Shown here: in pieces, positions 7,112 through 37,208 of the stretch | How positions within the stretch are numbered: position 1 is the stretch's first letter | Layout of the letters: every line of letters starts with the position of its first letter | From: Chloroflexota bacterium | GTDB taxonomy: Bacteria; Chloroflexota; Limnocylindria; Limnocylindrales; CSP1-4 | NCBI GenBank assembly: GCA_003171065.1 | Contig: PMXQ01000110.1 | Coordinates: forward strand, 1-37,208 | Direction: 5' to 3' | Length of the DNA stretch: 37,208 bases | Program-made: the position numbers and the translations under genes | Notes under the pieces: generated by a model | The model's database searches: none | Seen by the model: only the letters and a program-made list of their open reading frames with translations | What the model was told of the DNA's origin: nothing

Positions 7112-8278
7112 GTGAACCGCTTCGAGGCCAACCTGCGCATTCCCGGCCCCACGTCGCTCCCGGACGCCGTCCGAGAGGCTGGCGCTCGCCAGATGGTCAA
7201 CCATCGGGGTCCGGAGTTTGCCGTCCTCCAGAACAGCATCATCGCCCGCCTGAAGACCTTCTATAAGACCCAGAACGACGTCCTCATCGTCACCGCGGCC
7301 GGCACCGGCGGGCTTGAGTCGGCGATCGTCAGCTTCCTCTCCCCCGGCGACAAGGTCCTGGCAGTCACCATCGGCACCTTCGGCGATCGCTTCGCCAAGA
7401 TCGCCTCCACCTACGGCGCGGACGTCACCAGGCTCGCCTTCGAGTTGGGCAAGGCCGCCGCGCCGGAGAAGGTCCGCGAGGCCCTCAAGGCCGGTGGCCC
7501 GTGGAAGGCCGTCCTGATGACCCAGAACGAGACCTCCACCGCTGTCACCAACCCGATCGAAGCGCTGGCGAAGGTCGCCCACGAAGAGGCGCCCGACGCC
7601 CTGATCCTCGTCGACGCGATCTCGGGGCTGGGCGCCGTCCCGTTCGAGACGGATGCGTGGGGCCTGGACGTCGTCGTCAGCGGCTCGCAGAAGGCCTGGA
7701 TGGTCGCCCCCGGCCTCAGCTTCGTGGCCGTCTCGCCGCGCGCCTGGGAAGCGGCCGCAGTGGCGAAGATGCCCAAGTTCTACTTCGATCTGCTCGCCCA
7801 CAAGACCAGCGCCGAGGCGGGACAGACTCCGTGGACCCCGGCCGTGGCGGTGATGTTCCAGCTCGACGTCGCCCTCCAGTTGATGGAGCAGGAGACGCTG
7901 GCCGAGATCTGGAAGCGCCACGCCGCCGTGGGCGCGGCGGTTCGCGCCGGCCTGCAGACCCTCGGCTTCAAGCTCCTGGCGGACCCGAAGTACGCCTCGG
8001 ATACGGTCACCGGCGCCTGGATACCCGAGGACCTCGACTGGAAGGCTTTCAACGGCAAGCTCCGCAAGTACGGCCTCATCGTTGCCGGCGGCCAGGGCGC
8101 ACTCAAGGGCAAGATCTTCCGAATCGGGCACCTCGGCCACGTCACGATCCCGAACATCCTGAACGCGATGGCGGTCCTCGAGCAGACGCTCATCGAGCTC
8201 GATCGACCCGTCACTCCTGGCGCGGCCGTGGCCGCCGCCCAGGTCGCCGCCCTCAAGTCCCTCGGCCTGGCCAGGTAA
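7112..8278 (+). CDS. Class V PLP-dependent aminotransferase, probably the serine-pathway aminotransferase
   Basis: The 388-residue protein is a fold-type I, class V aminotransferase of the alanine-glyoxylate/serine-pyruvate type. The Schiff-base lysine is Lys194 in SGSQKAWMVAPGLS, and the aspartate that binds the PLP ring nitrogen is Asp168 in VDAISGLG. The N-terminal PGPT motif and the TAAGTGGLESA phosphate-binding turn are typical. It lies 10 bases before serA, so I infer that it converts 3-phosphohydroxypyruvate plus glutamate to phosphoserine, replacing a classical SerC. Alanine- or serine-glyoxylate transamination is the alternative. I chose the GTG at 7112, preceded by GAGGTGG, over the track start at 6710, whose extra residues are antisense to vapBC. 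Confidence 0.88.
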   Translation: MNRFEANLRIPGPTSLPDAVREAGARQMVNHRGPEFAVLQNSIIARLKTFYKTQNDVLIVTAAGTGGLESAIVSFLSPGDKVLAVTIGTFGDRFAKIASTYGADVTRLAFELGKAAAPEKVREALKAGGPWKAVLMTQNETSTAVTNPIEALAKVAHEEAPDALILVDAISGLGAVPFETDAWGLDVVVSGSQKAWMVAPGLSFVAVSPRAWEAAAVAKMPKFYFDLLAHKTSAEAGQTPWTPAVAVMFQLDVALQLMEQETLAEIWKRHAAVGAAVRAGLQTLGFKLLADPKYASDTVTGAWIPEDLDWKAFNGKLRKYGLIVAGGQGALKGKIFRIGHLGHVTIPNILNAMAVLEQTLIELDRPVTPGAAVAAAQVAALKSLGLAR

Positions 8279-26809: not shown

Positions 26810-27781
26810 CTACGGCTGGTATAGCTCGGCCGAGGCGAGATACGTTCCTCGATCCTCGCCTCCGGCGATCAGGACGCGGCCGTCGGGGAGCAGCGTGGCG
26901 GTGGAGTAGTAACGACTGGTAGCCATCGAGCCGGTCGGGCCGAACGAGCCTGTCTTGGGGTCATACAGCTCGGCCGAGGCGAGAGGCGTTAATCCGTCGT
27001 GACCTCCGGCGATCAGGACGCGGCCGTCGGGGAGCAGCGTCGCGGTGTGCCAGAGGCGAGTGGTAGCCATCGAGCCGGTCGGACTGAACGAGCCTGTCTT
27101 GGGGTCATACAGCTCGGCCGAGGCGAGCGAGGCAGATTCGTTGAAGCCTCCGGCGATGAGGACGCGGCCATCGTGGAGCGCTGTGGCGGTGTGGCCTGTG
27201 CGAGTGGTTTTCATCGAGCCGGTCGGGCTGAACGAGCCTGTCTTGGGGTCATACAGCTCGGCCGAGGCGAGATACGTTGATTGGGCGTAGCCTCCGCCGA
27301 AGCCTCCGGCGATCAGGACTCGGCCGTCGGAGAGCAGGGTGGCGGTGTGGAACTCGCGAACGGTAGTCATCGAGCCGGTCGGACTGAACGAGCCTGTCTT
27401 GGGGTCATACAGCTCGGCCGAGGCGGTGTCAGTCGCGTCGTTGTCAACTCTGCCTCCGGCGATCAGGACGCGGCCGTCGGAGAGCAGGGTGGCGGTGTGG
27501 AACTCGCGAACGGTAGTCATCGAGCCGGTCGGACTGAAGCGCGGTGGCGGCGTGGGTGAAGCGGTGGGAGTCGGGGCAGGTGTCGGCGTGGGTGAAGCGG
27601 TGGGAGCCGGCTCGGGAGTCGGCGACGCGGTGGTGGACGGAGTGGGCCTATCTATCGGGCTCGGCGTTGCCGTCGCAGCGGCGCAGGCCGCCAGGCTCGC
27701 CCCGATCAACAGGACGGCCATCAGCCGCCCAACTCTGGCGTAGCTCCGGCGACCGCCGGAGGATCCTTTGACCTGGTTCAT
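26810..27781 (-). CDS. Kelch-repeat lipoprotein with five near-identical repeats
   Basis: The 323-residue protein starts with a lipoprotein signal (RLMAVLLIGASLAAC, lipobox Cys33) and then a Pro/Thr/Ser-rich linker (TPSTTASPTPEPAPTASPTP). Five kelch-type repeats of 48-52 residues follow, each of the form FSPTGSM..R..HTATLL.DGRVLIAGG...ASAELYDPKTGS. The motif has the double glycine and the Tyr/Trp positions of a beta-propeller blade. Five blades are fewer than the usual six or seven, so the fold may be open, oligomeric, or recently shortened. I chose the ATG at 27781 (GGGGGAG just upstream) over the track start at 28147. It is an exported, membrane-anchored protein, probably for binding; ligand unknown. 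Confidence 0.88.
   Translation of the reverse strand: MNQVKGSSGGRRSYARVGRLMAVLLIGASLAACAAATATPSPIDRPTPSTTASPTPEPAPTASPTPTPAPTPTASPTPPPRFSPTGSMTTVREFHTATLLSDGRVLIAGGRVDNDATDTASAELYDPKTGSFSPTGSMTTVREFHTATLLSDGRVLIAGGFGGGYAQSTYLASAELYDPKTGSFSPTGSMKTTRTGHTATALHDGRVLIAGGFNESASLASAELYDPKTGSFSPTGSMATTRLWHTATLLPDGRVLIAGGHDGLTPLASAELYDPKTGSFGPTGSMATSRYYSTATLLPDGRVLIAGGEDRGTYLASAELYQP
26815..27545 (-). repeat. Homogenised kelch DNA repeats
   Basis: The coding repeats remain almost identical at DNA level. A conserved core beginning CATCGAGCCGGTCGG recurs at 26924, 27068, 27212, 27368 and 27518, giving periods of 144, 144, 156 and 150 bp. This implies recent duplication or gene conversion rather than ancient blade divergence. 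Confidence 0.85.
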
Positions 27782-27790
27782 CTCTCCCCC

Positions 27791-27817
27791 AATCCGGCTC
27801 AGTTCCTGAACCGGATT
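27791..27817. repeat. Imperfect palindrome in the kelch gene leader
   Basis: AATCCGG-c-TCAG-ttc-CTGA-a-CCGGATT has 7-bp outer arms and matching inner arms. It lies only 10 bases upstream of the kelch start codon, so it could be an operator or an mRNA hairpin affecting initiation. Confidence 0.5.
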
Positions 27818-27904
27818 GAGACGCTGGCGACCGCCCGGCGGTGATGGCAAACGGGGCAGCGAAGGCTTGCGCCAGCCGAGCGTCGGGCCGGGCGCGATCC
27901 CACT

Positions 27905-27933
27905 GAGGGTCGGCAGGAAGGATGCCGACCCTC
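27905..27933 (-). terminator. Strong hairpin, possible attenuator or terminator
   Basis: An 11-bp perfect stem (arms GAGGGTCGGCA and TGCCGACCCTC) encloses a 7-nt loop. No U tract follows on either strand. It lies about 10 bases after the possible leader ORF and about 125 bases before the kelch start. Confidence 0.45.
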
Positions 27934-27942
27934 TGGGGGCCG

Positions 27943-27990
27943 TCACAGTCCTCGGTCGACCGATGGCAGCGGATCTTGCGGCGTGGCCAT
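27943..27990 (-). CDS. Possible 15-codon leader ORF
   Basis: On the minus strand GGGAGGTG lies 5 nt before an ATG that opens a 15-codon frame (MATPQDPLPSVDRGL) ending in TGA. The Shine-Dalgarno is among the strongest in the window, and the stop is followed within about 10 bases by the 11-bp hairpin. This resembles a leader-peptide attenuator, but no run of one regulatory codon is present, so it is only a candidate. Confidence 0.25.
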   Translation of the reverse strand: MATPQDPLPSVDRGL

Positions 27991-28174
27991 GGCAACACCT
28001 CCCTGTCGCGGATCTGGACCGAGGACCTCGTGCCACGATCCTGCGGGTCGGTCTCGCCACTGGCTCGCCGCGATCCCGGCGGCCGGGGTGTGGGCCGCGT
28101 GTCAGAGCCCCTATCTGGGATGATTCGCCACCGGGGGACGGGGCCACAGCGTGGGCCAGCGCACTGTCACCCGA

Positions 28175-29774: not shown

Positions 29775-30455
29775 CTAGCCCCGGTCGAGTTCGGCCTCGG
29801 GAGGCTGCTGGCCTTCCTCGGTCTTGTCGACTCCGTCGGCGCCGCTCGCCGATTCGGTCAGTGCAGTCAGCGGCGATACAGTGGCGGAGTAGACAGCATC
29901 GATGATGCCATACTCCTTGGCCTCCGTTGGGGACATGAAGTAGTCCCTTGAGGTATCGGCAACGATCTTCTCGATCGGTTGTCCACAATGGCGGCTCAGA
30001 ATCTCGTGATTTGTGTTGACCAGAGTCTCCATCTCCTTGACCTGGATCATCACGTCCGGGGTGTTGCCCCGGAAGCCGCCGGACCCCTGGTGGATCATGA
30101 TCCGGCTGTGCGGCAGGGCGAAGCGCTTGGCGGGCGCGCCGGCGGCGAGCAGCACGGCCGCCATGCTGGCCGCCATGCCTATGCAGATCGTGCTCACAGG
30201 GGCACGGACGTACTGCATCGTGTCGTAGATCGCAAGACCGCTGGTGATGACCCCGCCGGGCGAGTTGATGTACAGGCTGATGTCCCGCTCCGGATCCTCG
30301 GCGTCGAGGAAGAGCAGCTGGGCGATGACCAGGTTCGCGACGTTGTCCTCGATGGTGTCGCCCAGGAAGATGATTCGCTCGCGCAGAAGGCGCGAGTAGA
30401 TGTCGTAGGCGCGCTCGCCACGGCTCGAGGACTCGATCACCATCGGCACGAGCAT
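29775..30455 (-). CDS. clpP: ATP-dependent Clp protease proteolytic subunit ClpP
   Basis: The 226-residue serine protease has the full triad: Ser97 in GMAASMAA, His122 in RIMIHQG and Asp171 in [27 protein letters not shown] is the canonical substrate-groove stretch. The usual length is 195-210 residues, and the extra part is a polar C-terminal tail ([20 protein letters not shown]) that looks disordered. It assembles into the tetradecameric chamber capped by ClpX. GAGGAG 8 nt before the ATG supports the start. The gene sits between tig and clpX, the conserved bacterial order. Confidence 0.98.
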
Positions 30456-30484
30456 CGAATCGTCTCCTCTTCGCTGGGTCGCGC

Positions 30485-31915
30485 TCAGGCGCCGGGCGCG
30501 CTGGCGGCCGGCCGCGTCAGGCTCTCAGGTGCGGTCATTCCGGCCGACGCGGCAGCCTCGACGGGCACAGTCTCGACAGTCGAACCTGGCCCGGCATCCT
30601 CGATGTGCCGCAGGCGCGGCGCCTCAGGGTGGGCCGTGAGCCATTCGTCCACGAGCTGTTCAACGGTCCGCGACTGCCGGATCGTGTTTCTGATGGAGTT
30701 TCGGCCGCGTTCGCTTTCGAAGAACTGGATCAGACTGCGATCGTTCGCATAGCGGGACCTCGCCTGGCCGACCTCTACCTCGACCTCGGCCTCCGAAACC
30801 TCAACGCCCTTGACCTTGGAGATCTCCGCGAGGGTCAGCAGGCTCTTCGCCCGCTTCTCGGCCTGAGGGCGGAACTCCGCCCGCGCCTCGGCATCGGTCT
30901 TGCCGGTCGCCTTGAAATACGCCTGATCGCTGATCCCCTGGCGAGCCAGGGCGGAGCGCATCTCGTCGCGCATGACCTCGACTTCCTGGTCGACCAGGAT
31001 GTCCGGCAGGTCGATGGTGGCGTTGGCCGCGGCGTAGTCGACGATCCGGTCGGCGAACTCATGACGGGCTCGATCGAGGGCGTTCTCCTCGAGGCGCTTG
31101 CGCAGCTCGACCTTGAGGTCGGCCAGGTCCTTGAATCGGCCCACGGATCGGGCGAACTCGTCGTCTGCTTCGGGCACGACCTTGCCGCGCAGCTCCTTCA
31201 GCTTCAGCTTGAAGTGCAGGTGCGCGCCGCGCATCCACTCGACCTGGAAGTTCTCCGGAATGTCGATGTCGAACTCGCGGTCTTCGCCCTTCCACATCCC
31301 GACGATGTGGTCTTCGAAGCCCGGGTACAGCCGGTTCTGGCCCAGAACGAGCGGCATCCGCTCAGAGGATCCGCCCGTGAACTTGGCGCCGTCCCGCGTG
31401 CCGTCGAACGCGACGATCACATAGTCGCCGTTCCCGGCGGCGCGGCCTTCCACCGGCTCGAGGTGGCCCTCGCCGTCGCGCAGATCGTCGACGACCTTCT
31501 CGACCATCGTCTCGTCGACGGGCTCAACCTCAGGCTTGAACGGGAAGTTCTCGAAGTCGCCGAGCTTGATCTCCGGCCGGACCTGCAAGGTCGCCTTGAA
31601 GATGACCGGCTTGCCCTCTTCGGCCTGGGTGACTTCGACCTCAGGAGAAGCCAGCGGCGCGATCTCCTGGTCGCGCACGGCCTCCCGCACGGCATTCTCG
31701 ACGAGGAGATCTACGGCTTCATCCATGACGGTGGAGGCACCTACCACTCGCTCCACGACCGCCCGCGGCGCCTTGCCAGGCCGGAATCCCGAAATGCGGT
31801 GCTGTTGCGAGAGGCGACGAGCGGCGTCGTCCAGCGAGCGGGTCAGGCGCTCGGCCGGGAGCTCGAACTCTATCTGGAGGCGGGATCTGGGAAGGGGGGT
31901 GTTGGTCGTCTGCAT
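30485..31915 (-). CDS. tig: Trigger factor, ribosome-associated chaperone/PPIase
   Basis: The 476-residue protein has the N-terminal ribosome-binding domain with the signature [13 protein letters not shown] (about 42-54). An FKBP-type PPIase domain follows (about 160-250, [12 protein letters not shown] and [20 protein letters not shown]), then the helical C-terminal chaperone arms. It binds nascent chains at the ribosome exit tunnel. A C-terminal extension of about 45 residues, rich in Ala, Pro and Glu, is probably disordered. It is first in the tig-clpP-clpX operon. A consensus TATAAT lies only 8 nt before the ATG, with no Shine-Dalgarno. Confidence 0.96.
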
Positions 31916-31923
31916 CGCGGGCG

Positions 31924-31929
31924 ATTATA
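31924..31929 (-). promoter_or_regulatory. Consensus -10 box for the tig-clpP-clpX operon
   Basis: TATAAT on the minus strand lies 8 nt before the tig ATG, giving a leader of one or two bases. No -35 match is visible; the spacer region is filled by a perfect palindrome. Confidence 0.5.
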
Positions 31930-31931
31930 GG

Positions 31932-31951
31932 GGCCGCGGCGGTCCGCGGCC
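31932..31951. promoter_or_regulatory. Perfect palindrome abutting the tig -10 box
   Basis: GGCCGCGG-CGGT-CCGCGGCC is an 8-bp perfect inverted repeat directly upstream of TATAAT, covering the promoter spacer. It could be a repressor operator for the chaperone/protease operon. Alternatively it is a terminator hairpin for the upstream PRC-barrel gene on the same strand. Confidence 0.45.
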
Positions 31952-32007
31952 GGGAGCGGAGGACGGGGTCCGGAGCCGGCGGGAGTGACGACGCCGTGCC
32001 CGCCGGG

Positions 32008-32370
32008 TCAGCGGTCCTTCTCTTTGACCCAGCCCACGTGCTTGCGCAGGAGCCCGACCATGCCCAGCTCGAACTGGCGCTCGTCGGTGTGCTCCGGCAG
32101 AGCGCCAAGCTCGCCGGCGCTGAGGGAGACATCGACGTGCGAGGCCGTCAAGGCGACCACGTCATCCGCCGACACGAAGACGCGTCGCCCCTTCCACTTG
32201 AGCTGCACGACGATGCCGTGGAAGATGTCCTCTTCGTGGGACCCCAGGAGGTCATACACAGTTCCGATCTGCTCGCCGTCCGAGCGCACCGGGGTGTTCT
32301 CCGGCACGGCGCGCCAGGCGATCGGCTGGTCCGTGTCGCCGTTGGCTTCGGACTTGGGTGGCGTGTCCAT
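32008..32370 (-). CDS. PRC-barrel-like small protein
   Basis: The 120-residue protein reads VRSDGEQIGTVYDLLGSHEEDIFHGIVVQLKWKGRRVFVSADDVVAL, the beta-barrel pattern of PRC-barrel/DUF2171-type domains (G..IG.V.D...V....V..D.V). A short helical end follows (RQFELGMVGLLRKHVGWVKEKDR). PRC-barrel domains occur in RNA-processing and photosynthetic assembly proteins, and stand-alone copies are functionally unknown. GGAG 8 nt upstream supports the ATG. It lies upstream of tig on the same strand, separated by a promoter-like region. Confidence 0.75.
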   Translation of the reverse strand: MDTPPKSEANGDTDQPIAWRAVPENTPVRSDGEQIGTVYDLLGSHEEDIFHGIVVQLKWKGRRVFVSADDVVALTASHVDVSLSAGELGALPEHTDERQFELGMVGLLRKHVGWVKEKDR

Positions 32371-32400
32371 CGTTGCTTCTCCTGACTTATCGAGCCGCCC

Positions 32401-33633
32401 TCACGCAGAGGGCGAGCTCGCGGGCAAGCTTGGGGACGGGCTCGCGGATGGCTTCGCCGACGCACTCGAGGATGGGCTCGGGGACGTCGGGACCATGCGA
32501 GCACCGACGATCTTGCAGATGTGGCGGACGATAGTGAAACCTTCGGGATTGAACGATTTGTCGTCCATCGTATAGACGGCGAGGATGTATGTCTCCGCGC
32601 CGACGGTGACGATCCCGGACGAGTTCATGACGTAGAGGTTGTCCGGTCCCAGGACCCAGCCGTCCTTCAGCGCGATCGTCGCCCCGGCGGGACTGCTGTC
32701 GCCGACCCCGACCCGCTGATCGGCCTGGATGTGCTCCATCAACTTGAGCGCCAGGGCGCGATCCGTCGCGTTCAGGATCTTCCCCTCATGCAGCAGCTCC
32801 AGCAGCGAAACCATCGCCGCGGGCGTGATCGTGCTAAAGCCCCAGCCGACGTGCGGGGTCTGCGGGGTCAGGCCGGAGATGCCGACCTTCTTCATGAACG
32901 CGTTGATCCCGGCCTGGTAGCCGATCTCCGTGTACAGCGCCGTCGCGGAATTGTTGTTCGAGTTCTCGATCATCGTCGTCAGCAGCGACAGCTCGGTGGC
33001 GTTGGGACCCCTCCCTTTCGCCTCGAGCTGAGTCAGCAGCGTTAGCATGATCGGCACTTTCATCGAGCTCGCGACGACGTACGGGCGGTCCGCGTTGTGG
33101 CCGTAGACCACGCCGCGAGTGACATCGAGCAGCTCGACCCCCACCCGGGTGCCGTAGTCGGTGAGGTAATCTGCCAGGCCCGTGTCGAGCGCGTCGAAGC
33201 TCGCCATGGCGCGGCCCGAGGGCTGGATCATCGTCAGCGCCGACGCCTCCACCCAGCCGGTCCCGTGCCGGCCAGGCGTCTGCCAGGTGACCTGGGCCCA
33301 GGCCTTGCCGTCAACCGTGGTTGACTTCAAGGTCAGCGTCAGCGGGAAGTTCGCCCCGAGATGGACCTGGGCGGCGCCCTCGTCACTCGCCGTCGCGTAC
33401 ACGGTCACCGACCCGCTCGTCCAGGCCTTCTGCGGGACAGGCGAGGGCGTGGGGGACGGGACGGGCGAAGGGGTGGGCGACGGAGTCGGCGACGACTGCG
33501 ACCCACTCGACTCGTTCGTCGACGTCGCGGGGCTGACCGAGCCCGAGGCCGACGACGCCGGCGGAGTCGAGCCGCCTCCGCAACCGAGCACCGCACATGC
33601 CAGGAGGCACACGAGCAGACGACGAATTGCCAC
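32401..33633 (-). CDS. Exported class A beta-lactamase-fold serine hydrolase (lipoprotein)
   Basis: The 410-residue protein starts with a lipoprotein signal (RRLLVCLLACAVLGC, Cys18). A long Ser/Thr/Pro linker follows, then a small beta domain (about 70-140, SVTVYATASDEGAAQVHLG to GTGWVEASAL) resembling SH3-like modules. The class A beta-lactamase/penicillin-binding fold follows with the SxxK nucleophile Ser189-Lys192 (ASSMKVPI), an SxN-like NSNNNSAT and KDGWV in place of KTG. The active-site set is thus present in relaxed form; peptidase or esterase activity on the envelope is as likely as antibiotic hydrolysis. The end is a Ser/Pro-rich tail. I chose the GTG at 33633, which has AGAGGTG 7 nt upstream, over the track start at 33981. 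Confidence 0.85.
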   Translation of the reverse strand: MAIRRLLVCLLACAVLGCGGGSTPPASSASGSVSPATSTNESSGSQSSPTPSPTPSPVPSPTPSPVPQKAWTSGSVTVYATASDEGAAQVHLGANFPLTLTLKSTTVDGKAWAQVTWQTPGRHGTGWVEASALTMIQPSGRAMASFDALDTGLADYLTDYGTRVGVELLDVTRGVVYGHNADRPYVVASSMKVPIMLTLLTQLEAKGRGPNATELSLLTTMIENSNNNSATALYTEIGYQAGINAFMKKVGISGLTPQTPHVGWGFSTITPAAMVSLLELLHEGKILNATDRALALKLMEHIQADQRVGVGDSSPAGATIALKDGWVLGPDNLYVMNSSGIVTVGAETYILAVYTMDDKSFNPEGFTIVRHICKIVGARMVPTSPSPSSSASAKPSASPSPSLPASSPSA

Positions 33634-33710
33634 AGTACGACACCTCTGGACGAGCCAGACCCCGACTCGACTGACTGCCGCCGACCGGTACGCGCCCCAG
33701 ATCATAGTCG

Positions 33711-33716
33711 ACGCCA
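33711..33716 (-). promoter_or_regulatory. Candidate -10 for the beta-lactamase-fold gene
   Basis: TATGAT on the minus strand lies about 77 bases before the GTG start, within the 115-bp divergent region shared with the CapA-type gene. No clear -35 is visible. Confidence 0.3.
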
Positions 33717-33736
33717 ACGCTCGGGACGGTACCTGC

Positions 33737-33742
33737 GACAAT
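33737..33742 (+). promoter_or_regulatory. Candidate -10 for leaderless CapA-type gene
   Basis: GACAAT ends exactly 6 nt before the ATG at 33749. No Shine-Dalgarno sequence is present, which fits a leaderless transcript as at rarA and the FAD/Fe-S gene. Confidence 0.35.
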
Positions 33743-33748
33743 CTGGGC

Positions 33749-35338
33749 ATGACACACCTGCGTCGATCCCTGCTGGCGTTGCTCGCCGTTCTCGCCATCG
33801 TTTCGGCGTGCGGCTCGAATCCGCCGAGCCCGCCGCCCAGCCAGGCCCCCAGCCCGACCTCGGCCGCGTCGCCGTTTGACGCTCCGACCGCCTCGCCGAC
33901 GCCGCAGTCCACGCCAAGTCCGACGGCAGCCCCGGCCGTTCCGATCGTTCCGGTCGCGGACTTTCGGACGATCGCGACCACGATCGATCAGGCCGGCGTC
34001 GCGGCCATCCTGGCCGGCACGAACAAGCAGTTCACGACGCTCGAGCTGGTGAGCGCCGACGCGGACGGCATCCTTGCGGCGCTCAGCCTGTCCCAACCGT
34101 CGGTCGCGAGCCGTCTCGTGCTCGCTCCGACCGCCGCGGTCCTGGAGGCCGACCTCGATGCCAAGGCGGCCCGCCTGGGCATCGTCCGCGCCACCGACGT
34201 GGGACCGAGCGTGCGAGCGCTGGGCTGGGGGGACGTGTCGCTCTTCGGCGTGTCTCGAGTCAAGAGCCTGGCGGACTGGCCGCTGCAGGCCAGCCTGCCG
34301 GCGACCGCCACCACAGCCGCGTTCAATCCGTCGGCGACCTGGACGATCGTCGCGGGCGGCGACGTGATGCTCGACCGCGGCGTGTACAAGGTGATCAAGC
34401 TCCAGGGCAAGGGCGTGGATTTCCCGTTCTCCGGCGGGACCGCCACGATCACCAGCCGCTACTGCTGCTCATCGTGGGACTGGGTGATGCCGCGCACGAA
34501 GGTCGATGACACGACCCAGGACGTGCGCGCCCTGACGTCGGGAGCTGACCTGTCGATGGTGAACCTGGAGGGTCCAGCCCCGACCAACTCCTCGTACCAC
34601 GCCACGGGAATGTCCTTCACATTCAATCAGGCGTTTCTCGCCGGGCTCCAGTACGCTGGGATCGATTGGGTCTCGCTTGCCAACAACCACATCCTCAACG
34701 CCGGCAGACAGGGCGTGGTCCAGACGATCGCGGCGCTTGACAAGCTCGGGATCGCCCACAGCGGCGCCGGCGCGAACATAACGGCGGCCCGGACTCCGGC
34801 CATCTTCAACATCGATGGCGTCAAGGTCGCGGTCCTCTCGTACGACGCGATCTCACCCGGCGAGGCCGCCACTGCGAAGTTACCCGGAACCGCCGAGCTC
34901 TCCGCCGGCACCGCCCCAGCCGACATCAAGGCAGCCAAGGCGGCCGGCGCCCAGGTCGTCATCGTCTACCCCCACTGGGGGATCGAATACAAGACCGGAC
35001 CGACCGCGGCTCAGAAGAGGCTGGCGCACCAGATGATCGACGCGGGCGCGGACATGATCATCGGCAACCATGCCCACTGGGCGGGGGCCATGGAGATATA
35101 CAAGGGCAAGCCGATCTGGTACGAGCTCGGCAACTTCGTGTTCGACCAGACATGGTCGGAGCAGACCGAAGAGGGGCTCGTGCTCGAGCTGACGTTCAGC
35201 GGCTCCACCCTCGTTCAGGCGTGGACGCATCCGACGATCATCCTCGATGGCGCCCAGCCGAATCTGCTGGATCCGGTGAGCGGCGAGGCCGTCATGAACC
35301 GCGTCTACACGGCCTCCGGGAAGCTGTTGCCCTGGTAA
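33749..35338 (+). CDS. CapA-family metallophosphatase-like lipoprotein
   Basis: The 529-residue protein begins MTHLRRSLLALLAVLAIVSAC, a lipoprotein signal with Cys21, followed by a Pro/Ser/Thr-rich linker. A short domain precedes the CapA (PGA_cap) core, which starts near residue 200. The core has VAGGDVMLDR, the MVNLEGP block, SLANNHILNAG, YPHWGIEY and IGNHAHW, then LGNFVFDQ: the metal-ligand pattern of the calcineurin-like/CapA fold. CapA proteins take part in poly-gamma-glutamate capsule synthesis, but many single CapA-type genes occur without CapB/CapC, as here, and their role is open. It is divergent from the beta-lactamase-fold gene. I chose the ATG at 33749 because the signal peptide starts there; the track ORF from 33182 is antisense to the neighbour. 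Confidence 0.9.
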   Translation: MTHLRRSLLALLAVLAIVSACGSNPPSPPPSQAPSPTSAASPFDAPTASPTPQSTPSPTAAPAVPIVPVADFRTIATTIDQAGVAAILAGTNKQFTTLELVSADADGILAALSLSQPSVASRLVLAPTAAVLEADLDAKAARLGIVRATDVGPSVRALGWGDVSLFGVSRVKSLADWPLQASLPATATTAAFNPSATWTIVAGGDVMLDRGVYKVIKLQGKGVDFPFSGGTATITSRYCCSSWDWVMPRTKVDDTTQDVRALTSGADLSMVNLEGPAPTNSSYHATGMSFTFNQAFLAGLQYAGIDWVSLANNHILNAGRQGVVQTIAALDKLGIAHSGAGANITAARTPAIFNIDGVKVAVLSYDAISPGEAATAKLPGTAELSAGTAPADIKAAKAAGAQVVIVYPHWGIEYKTGPTAAQKRLAHQMIDAGADMIIGNHAHWAGAMEIYKGKPIWYELGNFVFDQTWSEQTEEGLVLELTFSGSTLVQAWTHPTIILDGAQPNLLDPVSGEAVMNRVYTASGKLLPW

Positions 35339-35406
35339 ACGGGGCTCGGGGCGTAGAAACTCGCCCCGAATCGCAGACGGAAGCCCGGGGCTCGGCACAA
35401 ACACGG

Positions 35407-35463
35407 TGGTGGGCGAGGTCGGGGTCGAACCGACACGCCGCTTACGCGGCCACAACGGGGATG
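35407..35463 (-). tRNA. 3' fragment of a tRNA-Leu-type gene (probable attachment site)
   Basis: On the minus strand this piece has a CCA end with discriminator A and a 3' acceptor strand CTCGCCC. A perfect T arm follows (GTCGG-TTCGACC-CCGAC), then a long variable arm (GCCGC-GTAA-GCGGC), the pattern of leucine tRNAs, and finally TCCCC of an anticodon stem. No matching 5' acceptor strand (GGGCGAG) or D arm occurs in the next 80 bases, so the gene is cut off near the anticodon loop. A displaced tRNA 3' end is what remains at the far side of an element integrated into a tRNA gene. It is not a functional tRNA. Confidence 0.7.
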
Positions 35464-35717
35464 CTCTATCCGGCTCCTCGTGGCGGGCGATGCAGAATCG
35501 GCGCTGTTAGCGTGTGAGTCGGACCCCGAGTTAGGCCCAACTGGGGCACTGCGCCGTCTCGGCGTCTCGGACTGGCTCCGGCTTCGATGATGCACGCGCT
35601 GGCTTTGTACCTCATCCCGGTCCTAGGTGTCTGCGTTGTGGTCTGTCTCGCATACCTCCCGCGCCCGACGGGCCACCGTTCCGCCGTGGTTCGACTCACT
35701 GGCAAGGTGCGCGAGGT
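35464..35717. other. Element-end region between the tRNA fragment and the tail-fibre gene
   Basis: About 250 bases lie between the tRNA fragment and the stop of the tail-fibre-like gene. The only candidate is a 44-codon plus-strand frame with a membrane segment (see 35587). No integrase or excisionase gene fits here. Confidence 0.35.
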
Positions 35718-35721
35718 CTAG
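35587..35721 (+). CDS. Possible small single-pass membrane protein
   Basis: The frame encodes 44 residues: MMHALALYLIPVLGVCVVVC, then LAYLPRP and a basic tail. About 20 hydrophobic residues run together, followed by positive charges, the pattern of a small membrane protein. Its stop overlaps the end of the tail-fibre-like gene on the opposite strand. No clear Shine-Dalgarno is visible and the frame is too short for the ORF track, so this is tentative. Confidence 0.3.
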   Translation: MMHALALYLIPVLGVCVVVCLAYLPRPTGHRSAVVRLTGKVREV

Positions 35722-37208
35722 CCTACGACGCACCAGCGGGACACGTCGCCGTCATAGCGGACTAGGACGGTCCGTAGCGTCGTCAGTGAGAACGACGCCG
35801 CGCCGGGGCAGTACCACCGATTCGCGGCGGCGGATGAGGCGCTGTTGTGGGGCAGGGTGAGGGTCGAGCCGCTCGCATTGTTGAGTAGCTTCTCCTCGCC
35901 TTCGGACCCTGCCGCCATCCCGGTGATGGAATACGCGCCGGTTGAGGAGATCTTGACCGTGCGCGCGCCAGACAGGCCGGTTGGCGCCCAGTCGTTCACG
36001 GAGGCTGTCAGGCTCGGGGCGATGTACCCATACATCCGGAAGTTAGCGCCTCCGGATAGCTGCCCGTCCGAGTCGATGCCCCCGCCCGAGTTCGTAACGA
36101 TGTCGCCGCCGACCTGGAGTTCGCCGGATACGAAGGTCGGCCCGAGCGTGATCGCAACAGTCGGGTCGATTGAGCTGGACTCAGTACCGGGTGCCAGGCA
36201 GGCGAGCCCGAATCTGACCCAATTCGAGGCGCTATGGGTCGTCTGTTCCCACGCGGTCAATTCGACGCGGGCATATCGAGCGTTGAGCGGTGCACGCATC
36301 GCGGCGCCCGTGAAGATGCCCTCGGCCGTAGTCCCGCTAGGACAGGAGGGGCCAGCCGAGTCGGTCGAGGATATGAACCCGCCCCCGGCGGTGTACCACC
36401 TAACGGCTACGTCGGAGAATACGGCCCCTGCCGCTTGGTTCGACGCCGCCACTAGGAAGGTGTACAGGAGCGAACCGCCTTCGACCGGGACTAGGTCGGT
36501 CGTTATCGCGACGTTGTTTGAGGTGATGGTGCCCACGGCCGAAAAGGCGAACTGGACGTAGTTGCCACCCGGCCAGGACGTTGAGGCTACAACCGTAGCG
36601 GTGCCCGAGCCCGAGCTGCGCCAAGCCGTCCAGAATGGCAGGCCGGACGTTTCGCCGGTGGCGTCGGTGCGGCTCGTGCCCAAAGTCAGCGCCCCGGCAA
36701 CACTCTCACTCATCTGCGAGTTGTAGATACCTGAGTGGATGAAGTCCACCCAGGCGGCGCCGAAGCCCTGGGGTTCGAGCAGTGATCCGCCATAAGCGTC
36801 ATAGAGCGCGACGCCATAGGAGCCGTCAGGCAGATGACCCAAGATCGCCCGGACGAGAGTGCCGTCACTAACCTGGATACCGGAGGCTGATACCGTCGTG
36901 CTGGCGTTTCCTAGCACCACTCCCGATGGCACCGTTCCGCTGGACTGGTTCAGGATGATCTTGGCTCCGTCGATCAGGACGTTGCCACTCGCGTCCACAA
37001 TCTTGATGCCGTAGTCGGTGCCAATGTGGCCGAGGGTGGCACGCGCCCGCGTCCCATCGCTGACCTGGACGCCGTTGGCAGTTATCGTCGTGGACGAGTT
37101 GCCGAGGACCACGCCAGAGGGCACGGTGCCTGTTGATTGCGCCAACTGGATCTTCGAGCCATCAATGAGCGCATTCCCGCTGGCGTCCACGATCTTGATG
37201 CCGTAGTC
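35718..37208 (-). CDS. Phage tail-fibre-like protein, 5' end outside the window
   Basis: The frame is open to the window edge (it reads DYGIKIVDASGN from the last base), so the track start at 37190 is internal and the gene is partial; at least 496 residues are present. The visible N-terminal part has 64-residue repeats (YGIKIVDASGN.LIDG.KI, then GTVPSGVVLGN.STT). A beta-rich middle follows (FYPG-like jelly-roll composition, many Ser/Thr/Gly), and the C-terminus LTLPHNSASSAAANRWYCPG...RYDGDVSRW is the ending seen in phage tail fibre and tip proteins. It probably binds a receptor or forms part of a tail. Base composition is visibly lower in GC than the core genes, and it lies inside the putative integrated element. 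Confidence 0.7.
   Translation of the reverse strand, partial: DYGIKIVDASGNALIDGSKIQLAQSTGTVPSGVVLGNSSTTITANGVQVSDGTRARATLGHIGTDYGIKIVDASGNVLIDGAKIILNQSSGTVPSGVVLGNASTTVSASGIQVSDGTLVRAILGHLPDGSYGVALYDAYGGSLLEPQGFGAAWVDFIHSGIYNSQMSESVAGALTLGTSRTDATGETSGLPFWTAWRSSGSGTATVVASTSWPGGNYVQFAFSAVGTITSNNVAITTDLVPVEGGSLLYTFLVAASNQAAGAVFSDVAVRWYTAGGGFISSTDSAGPSCPSGTTAEGIFTGAAMRAPLNARYARVELTAWEQTTHSASNWVRFGLACLAPGTESSSIDPTVAITLGPTFVSGELQVGGDIVTNSGGGIDSDGQLSGGANFRMYGYIAPSLTASVNDWAPTGLSGARTVKISSTGAYSITGMAAGSEGEEKLLNNASGSTLTLPHNSASSAAANRWYCPGAASFSLTTLRTVLVRYDGDVSRWCVVG
36825..37208 (-). repeat. 192-bp tandem repeats in the tail-fibre gene
   Basis: TCTTGATGCCGTAGTC occurs at 37001 and again at 37193, a period of 192 bp (64 codons). 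The repeat continues past the window edge, so the copy number is unknown. Confidence 0.75.

Follow-up and report, generated by a model that had tools for sequence, protein, structure and literature searches.

Genetic elements that integrate at tRNA genes have been catalogued by where in the tRNA they recombine and by which part of the gene they displace. The Islander collection recognises three subsites only—the anticodon loop, the T loop and the T/acceptor junction—and contains 3760 islands with a 3′ tRNA fragment, set against 159 with a 5′ fragment (PMC4383910). Among phages, mycobacteriophages of the Omega/Baka and Gaia types integrate at tRNA-Leu(CAA), and the Omega type rebuilds the 3′ half of the gene (PMC10865867). 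Archaeal integrated plasmids of the pT26-2 family occupy tRNA-Ser and tRNA-Leu genes and have the variable loop inside the att repeat (PMC6972569). Our literature searches on variable-arm integration found no reported case.

Here we describe a temperate-phage-like element that, with a probability of roughly 93%, owes its position in the host's single tRNA-Leu(TAG) gene to a tyrosine integrase acting on a core in the variable arm. The host is probably a member of Chloroflexota related to the Limnocylindrales. The sequence analysed (the window) comprises bases 1–37208 of scaffold C10 (39,146 bp), which belongs to a 3.02-Mb metagenome-assembled genome (MAG; G000) that is 88% complete and consists of 151 contigs. 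The window ends at 37208, where the scaffold has a two-base NN gap (37209–37210). Features of the window and of contig C118, which carries the other end of the element, are listed in Table 1.

Table 1. Features at the two ends of the element; coordinates without a contig name refer to the window.
Feature	Position	Strand	Evidence or remark
capA-like host gene (PGA_cap)	33182..35338	+	ORF; last chromosomal gene before junction
Displaced 3′ 44 nt of tRNA-Leu(TAG)	35407..35450	-	100% identity to intact congener genes; no ARAGORN call
18-bp core common to both junctions, GCCGCGTAAGCGGCGTGT (variable arm and first T-stem bases)	35433..35450	-	Longest sequence common to the junctions on C118 and in the window
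Element-side attachment arm	35451..35541	-	Matches both G013 tRNA-Leu fragments (94% over 97 bp, 96% over 70 bp)
CACGCTAAC, candidate arm-type integrase site	35506..35514	-	Only 9-mer common to both element arms (window and C118)
Tail-fibre or tail-tip-like protein with DYGIKIVDASGN repeats	35718..37208	-	Open at right edge of window
Dam-type methylase	C118:248-772		Inside element
DnaB-like helicase	C118:2108-3541		Inside element
Second integrase	C118:11277-12233	Opposite to first integrase	Inside element
RES-domain gene	C118:12525-13208		Inside element
Tyrosine integrase	C118:14193-15143	-	PF00589, E 3.8e-25; phrog_1, E 2.6e-47
Intact tRNA-Leu(TAG)	C118:15232-15319	-	ARAGORN

Read on the minus strand from 35450 to 35407, the fragment GCCGCGTAAGCGGCGTGTCGGTTCGACCCCGACCTCGCCCACCA comprises the variable and T arms, the 3′ acceptor strand with its discriminator A, and the CCA end of tRNA-Leu(TAG), and holds neither the 5′ half nor any anticodon-arm sequence. 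A preliminary description of this DNA had recognised it as a tRNA-Leu end that lacks the 5′ half. ARAGORN called no tRNA anywhere in the window, which therefore lacks an intact tRNA gene. All 44 bp are identical to intact tRNA-Leu(TAG) genes of the congeners G002, G004 and G009 (E about 1e-15 to 1e-17), so the match is not due to chance. The preliminary description had expected about 57 bp (35407–35463) to be shared with an intact gene; this was too long, since the tRNA-derived part stops at 35450, positions 35451–35463 are element sequence, and only 18 bp are exact between the two junctions. The fragment is the original 3′ part of the host tRNA and forms the far attachment junction of the element. 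The true start of the adjacent capA-like gene probably lies inside the listed ORF. In the congener G019, the DNA is 88% identical along this gene, and the homologue matches PF09587 (2.3e-71) and adjoins an intact tRNA. A search of 33000–37208 against Rfam returned a single IRES match, which we judged to be chance. Also on the chromosomal side, at 26810–28147, lies a Kelch-repeat lipoprotein-like gene related to the Kelch genes that occupy the tRNA-Leu site in G013.

Within G000, the fragment matched only two places, itself and C118:15232–15275 (86% over 44 bp). The latter lies in the sole tRNA-Leu(TAG) gene found in the assembly. In G019 (locus L054), an intact tRNA-Leu(TAG) directly adjoins the capA-like gene, with nothing in between, and this stretch aligns unbroken to C118:15232–23942 (90.5% and 88.0%) and to window positions 30018–35450 (88.2%). 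The two alignments overlap in G019 by exactly 44 bp, the stretch duplicated in G000. Because the G019 empty site spans both contigs with this 44-bp overlap, C118 and C10 carry the two edges of one insertion. The comparison with a relative that lacks the element thus bears out the boundary proposed earlier. An intact tRNA-Leu and an integrase had been predicted beyond the right edge of the window; both exist, but on another contig, where the integrase gene begins 88 bp past the 3′ end of the tRNA. In an 11-member alignment, its residues R160, K184, H250, R253, W276 and Y285 are invariant. The lower G+C content noted for the element side also holds, if only modestly: values are 0.58–0.66 in C10:35500–39000 and mostly 0.62–0.68 in C118:1–14000, compared with mostly 0.66–0.73 in the chromosome flanks.

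The locus thereby combines a displaced tRNA fragment, a regenerated intact tRNA at the opposite end and an integrase beside the attachment site, and in a relative the site is empty. We put the element at 18.9 kb or more (15,231 + 3,696 bp), or at about 17 kb or more if the 1.9 kb past the scaffold gap are left out; its middle is unassembled and, with its two ends on different contigs, it is never seen whole. That fragmentation, in a MAG of 151 contigs, is what might favour a decayed tRNA pseudogene or an assembly artefact with no insertion involved. The exact 44-bp duplication, the integrase at the C118 junction and similar junctions in G013 speak against such an origin, and the empty-site alignment in G019 contradicts it, leaving it a negligible probability. 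A prophage boundary has in this way been confirmed from a fragmented genome, and two of its contigs have been joined.

The position of the crossover can be read from the two junctions. Their common core, GCCGCGTAAGCGGCGTGT, consists of the variable-arm hairpin GCCGC-GTAA-GCGGC and the first bases past the hairpin. From its 5′ half through the anticodon arm to the variable arm, the C118 tRNA agrees with the empty site; it then continues with an element-type T stem (GTGAG/CTCAC, still paired) in place of the GTCGG/CCGAC of the host. The host T stem is retained in the window fragment, whose similarity to the tRNA is lost upstream of the variable arm. Since the T stems differ between the junctions, the exchange fell 5′ of the differing T-stem bases, and the element does not belong to the T-loop or T/acceptor junction (subsite J) class. 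Nor does it fit the anticodon-loop (subsite A) class, to which the preliminary description had in effect assigned it, as the shared block is the variable arm with the first T-stem bases; before this block the window reads CCGTTGTG, where an anticodon-loop crossover would have left GGAGCTGGT. On sequence grounds, strand exchange is thus placed inside the 18-bp variable-arm core and not in the anticodon loop.

The same insertion could have arisen through an anticodon-loop crossover if the segment from the anticodon loop to the variable arm had since been lost from the window copy or mutated there. Relatives of the integrase do use the anticodon loop, in G020 at Arg(TCT), in G017 at Gly(TCC), in G026 at Met and in G064 at Gly, and the fragment left by one that sits at another tRNA-Leu(TAG) covers nt 1–40. 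However, in the window and in two tRNA-Leu fragments of G013, similarity to the tRNA stops at the same base and the next stretch of at least 64 bp is common to all three at 93–96%, so decay of the window copy is unlikely; moreover, the element half-site TGTGGCC beside the core is found again in the G020 junction. We consider this alternative very improbable and retain the variable-arm crossover.

The repeated 9-mer CACGCTAAC is a candidate arm-type integrase site, proposed from its recurrence in the two arms. As an exact 25-mer, the element arm was absent from IMG/VR. Weak matches to the arm (19–36 bp) in other genomes lay away from any tRNA, and we attributed them to chance. In G013 (locus L053, contig C217, 6409–9671), two Kelch-repeat genes lie between tRNA-Leu(TAG) and capA, and a tRNA-Leu 3′ fragment follows each of them. 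The first of these units contains a scaffold gap (7798–7799); the second, of about 1.76 kb, is gapless and, with both attachment arms but lacking an integrase, resembles a non-autonomous tandem element.

Integrase relatives were found in 54 of the 107 genomes of the host's bacterial family, and also in Chloroflexota and Actinomycetota generally. At 50 of 80 loci of relatives a tRNA gene lies 59–392 bp from the integrase start; at 32 of these loci the integrase faces the 3′ end of the tRNA and at the other 18 its 5′ end, and a nearby tRNA is always by the start of the integrase, never by its end. Where the far ends could be compared, the repeats overlap at the anticodon loop: 3′ repeats at Arg(TCT) in G020 (from nt 30, about 35 kb) and at Gly(TCC) in G017, 5′ repeats of nt 1–40 at Met in G026 (about 4.8 kb) and at Gly(TCC) in G064 (about 10 kb), and both kinds at Gly(TCC) in G110. 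The fragment at the other tRNA-Leu(TAG) (L206), which has a 5′-side integrase, likewise points to the anticodon loop. Set against the 159 and 3760 islands of Islander, this integrase family looks rich in 5′-end integration.

Several further arrangements were seen among these loci. In the window's own bacterial family, about 20 of 26 integrase relatives sit at a tRNA 5′ end. Far-end repeats of 39–40 bp, corresponding to tRNA nt 1–40, occur at L121/L150 (G026:C46:37236–42045), L153–L154 (G064:C59:13490–23527) and L155–L156 (G110:C55). At G110:C55:10323–40065, one tRNA-Gly(TCC) has fragments on either side of it, a 3′ one at a distance of about 1 kb and a 5′ one at about 28.6 kb. In G000 itself (C45:17687–19921), two integrase relatives, of which one is split into two pieces, read outward on either side of a tRNA-Gly(CCC); G013:C136:3763–6009 is arranged likewise.

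The closest integrase found to that of G000 is the one from G020, with 63% identity; the two are sisters in the tree (support 97/90). Common to their two targets is GCCnnnTAAGCGG, which falls in the anticodon arm of Arg(TCT) and in the variable arm of Leu(TAG). Among random 18-mers with a comparable base composition, about 0.1% reach a core match of 10 of 13 positions. By manual count, the Leu anticodon arm itself already matches the motif at 9 of 13 positions, so that the motif supports the variable-arm crossover without proving it; the proof lies in the junctions.

Beyond the junction, the window had been described as phage-tail-like, and the protein encoded there does match viral contigs: it is 57% identical over residues 1–494 to a protein of IMGVR_UViG_3300037049_000125, and a weaker relative in IMGVR_UViG_3300027742_000027 directly follows tape measure, Dit and minor tail genes, a viral context of the Caudoviricetes kind. 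It had no PHROG match and no Pfam match above the cut-off; a hit to CoV_M (15 bits, below the 27-bit cut-off) was dismissed. Right of the NN gap, C10 (37209–39146) is 100% identical over 1936 bp to IMGVR_UViG_3300037049_000125, in which the tail C-terminus is unlike that of the window and is followed by RecE, RecT and DnaB-like genes. Identity between this contig and the window tail gene falls from 98–100% to about 57% toward the C-terminus. Either the receptor-binding end is mosaic or the scaffold is chimeric, and the 1.9 kb beyond the gap may have been supplied by this element or by a co-occurring close relative in the same community.

Whether these genes make up a phage is a separate matter. 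A genomic island or satellite with a few phage genes would explain why searches of this MAG, which is 88% complete, gave no match to portal (PF04860), terminase (PF03354) or major capsid (PF05065), and in G013 the units bordered by the close attachment-site relative are short and carry Kelch-repeat genes alone. Against this, the element carries the tail-fibre-like gene, the DnaB-like helicase, a phage-type methylase and an HNH gene, the adjoining scaffold end is near-identical to a viral contig, and the middle of the element is unassembled. A search of G000 for a tape measure came back empty, and the C118 helicase had no relative in IMG/VR. An island or satellite is in our view unlikely, and the element is most likely a prophage, which may be whole. 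The second integrase leaves room for nested elements. At C118:12525–13811 (L064), the RES-domain gene has a weak helix-turn-helix ORF upstream, possibly a toxin-antitoxin pair inside the element.

As we reconstruct the insertion, the attachment site of the element would have carried a diverged copy of the 3′ part of the tRNA. Strand exchange within the 18-bp core then joined the host 5′ part to the element 3′ part, giving the intact, chimeric gene next to the integrase on C118, and stranded the host's own 3′ part at the opposite end, beside capA. The integrase on C118 presumably carried out this insertion, and excision may still be possible.

More broadly, we lean towards regarding the variable arm of class II tRNAs as a further integration subsite. 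On that reading, this integrase lineage treats tRNA hairpins as interchangeable cores—usually the anticodon arm—and the tRNA part that it replaces may be the 3′ or the 5′ one; within this genus, it would have switched in either direction between the anticodon arm of Arg(TCT) and the matching variable arm of Leu(TAG). The locus adds an integration point outside the three catalogued subsites of tRNA genes and suggests that an integrase can move to a new target tRNA if it recognises a similar hairpin in a different arm. The ends of such elements may be misplaced by tools that look only for anticodon-loop or T-loop repeats.

Compared with known systems, the element is of an ordinary kind and the new part is the position of the crossover. 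With the Islander anticodon-loop class it shares a tyrosine integrase beside a regenerated tRNA and a displaced 3′ fragment at the far end, but it differs in having crossed over within the variable arm, on a class II tRNA and outside the three subsites of that catalogue (PMC4383910). Like the Omega/Baka and Gaia mycobacteriophages, it has a phage integrase aimed at tRNA-Leu (PMC10865867); the attP regions of Baka and Gaia, near the integrase, both hold the anticodon-loop sequence TTCAAAA, and their core appears to lie in the anticodon loop, unlike that of the G000 element. The pT26-2 family also targets class II tRNAs, but its members are archaeal plasmids, for which the accessible portion of the article claims no variable-arm crossover (PMC6972569). 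The 35-kb element in tRNA-Arg(TCT) of G020, from the same genus, carries the closest integrase found and has the same kind of 3′ fragment, core motif and half-site; its core lies in the anticodon arm of tRNA-Arg, whereas that of the G000 element lies in the variable arm of tRNA-Leu.
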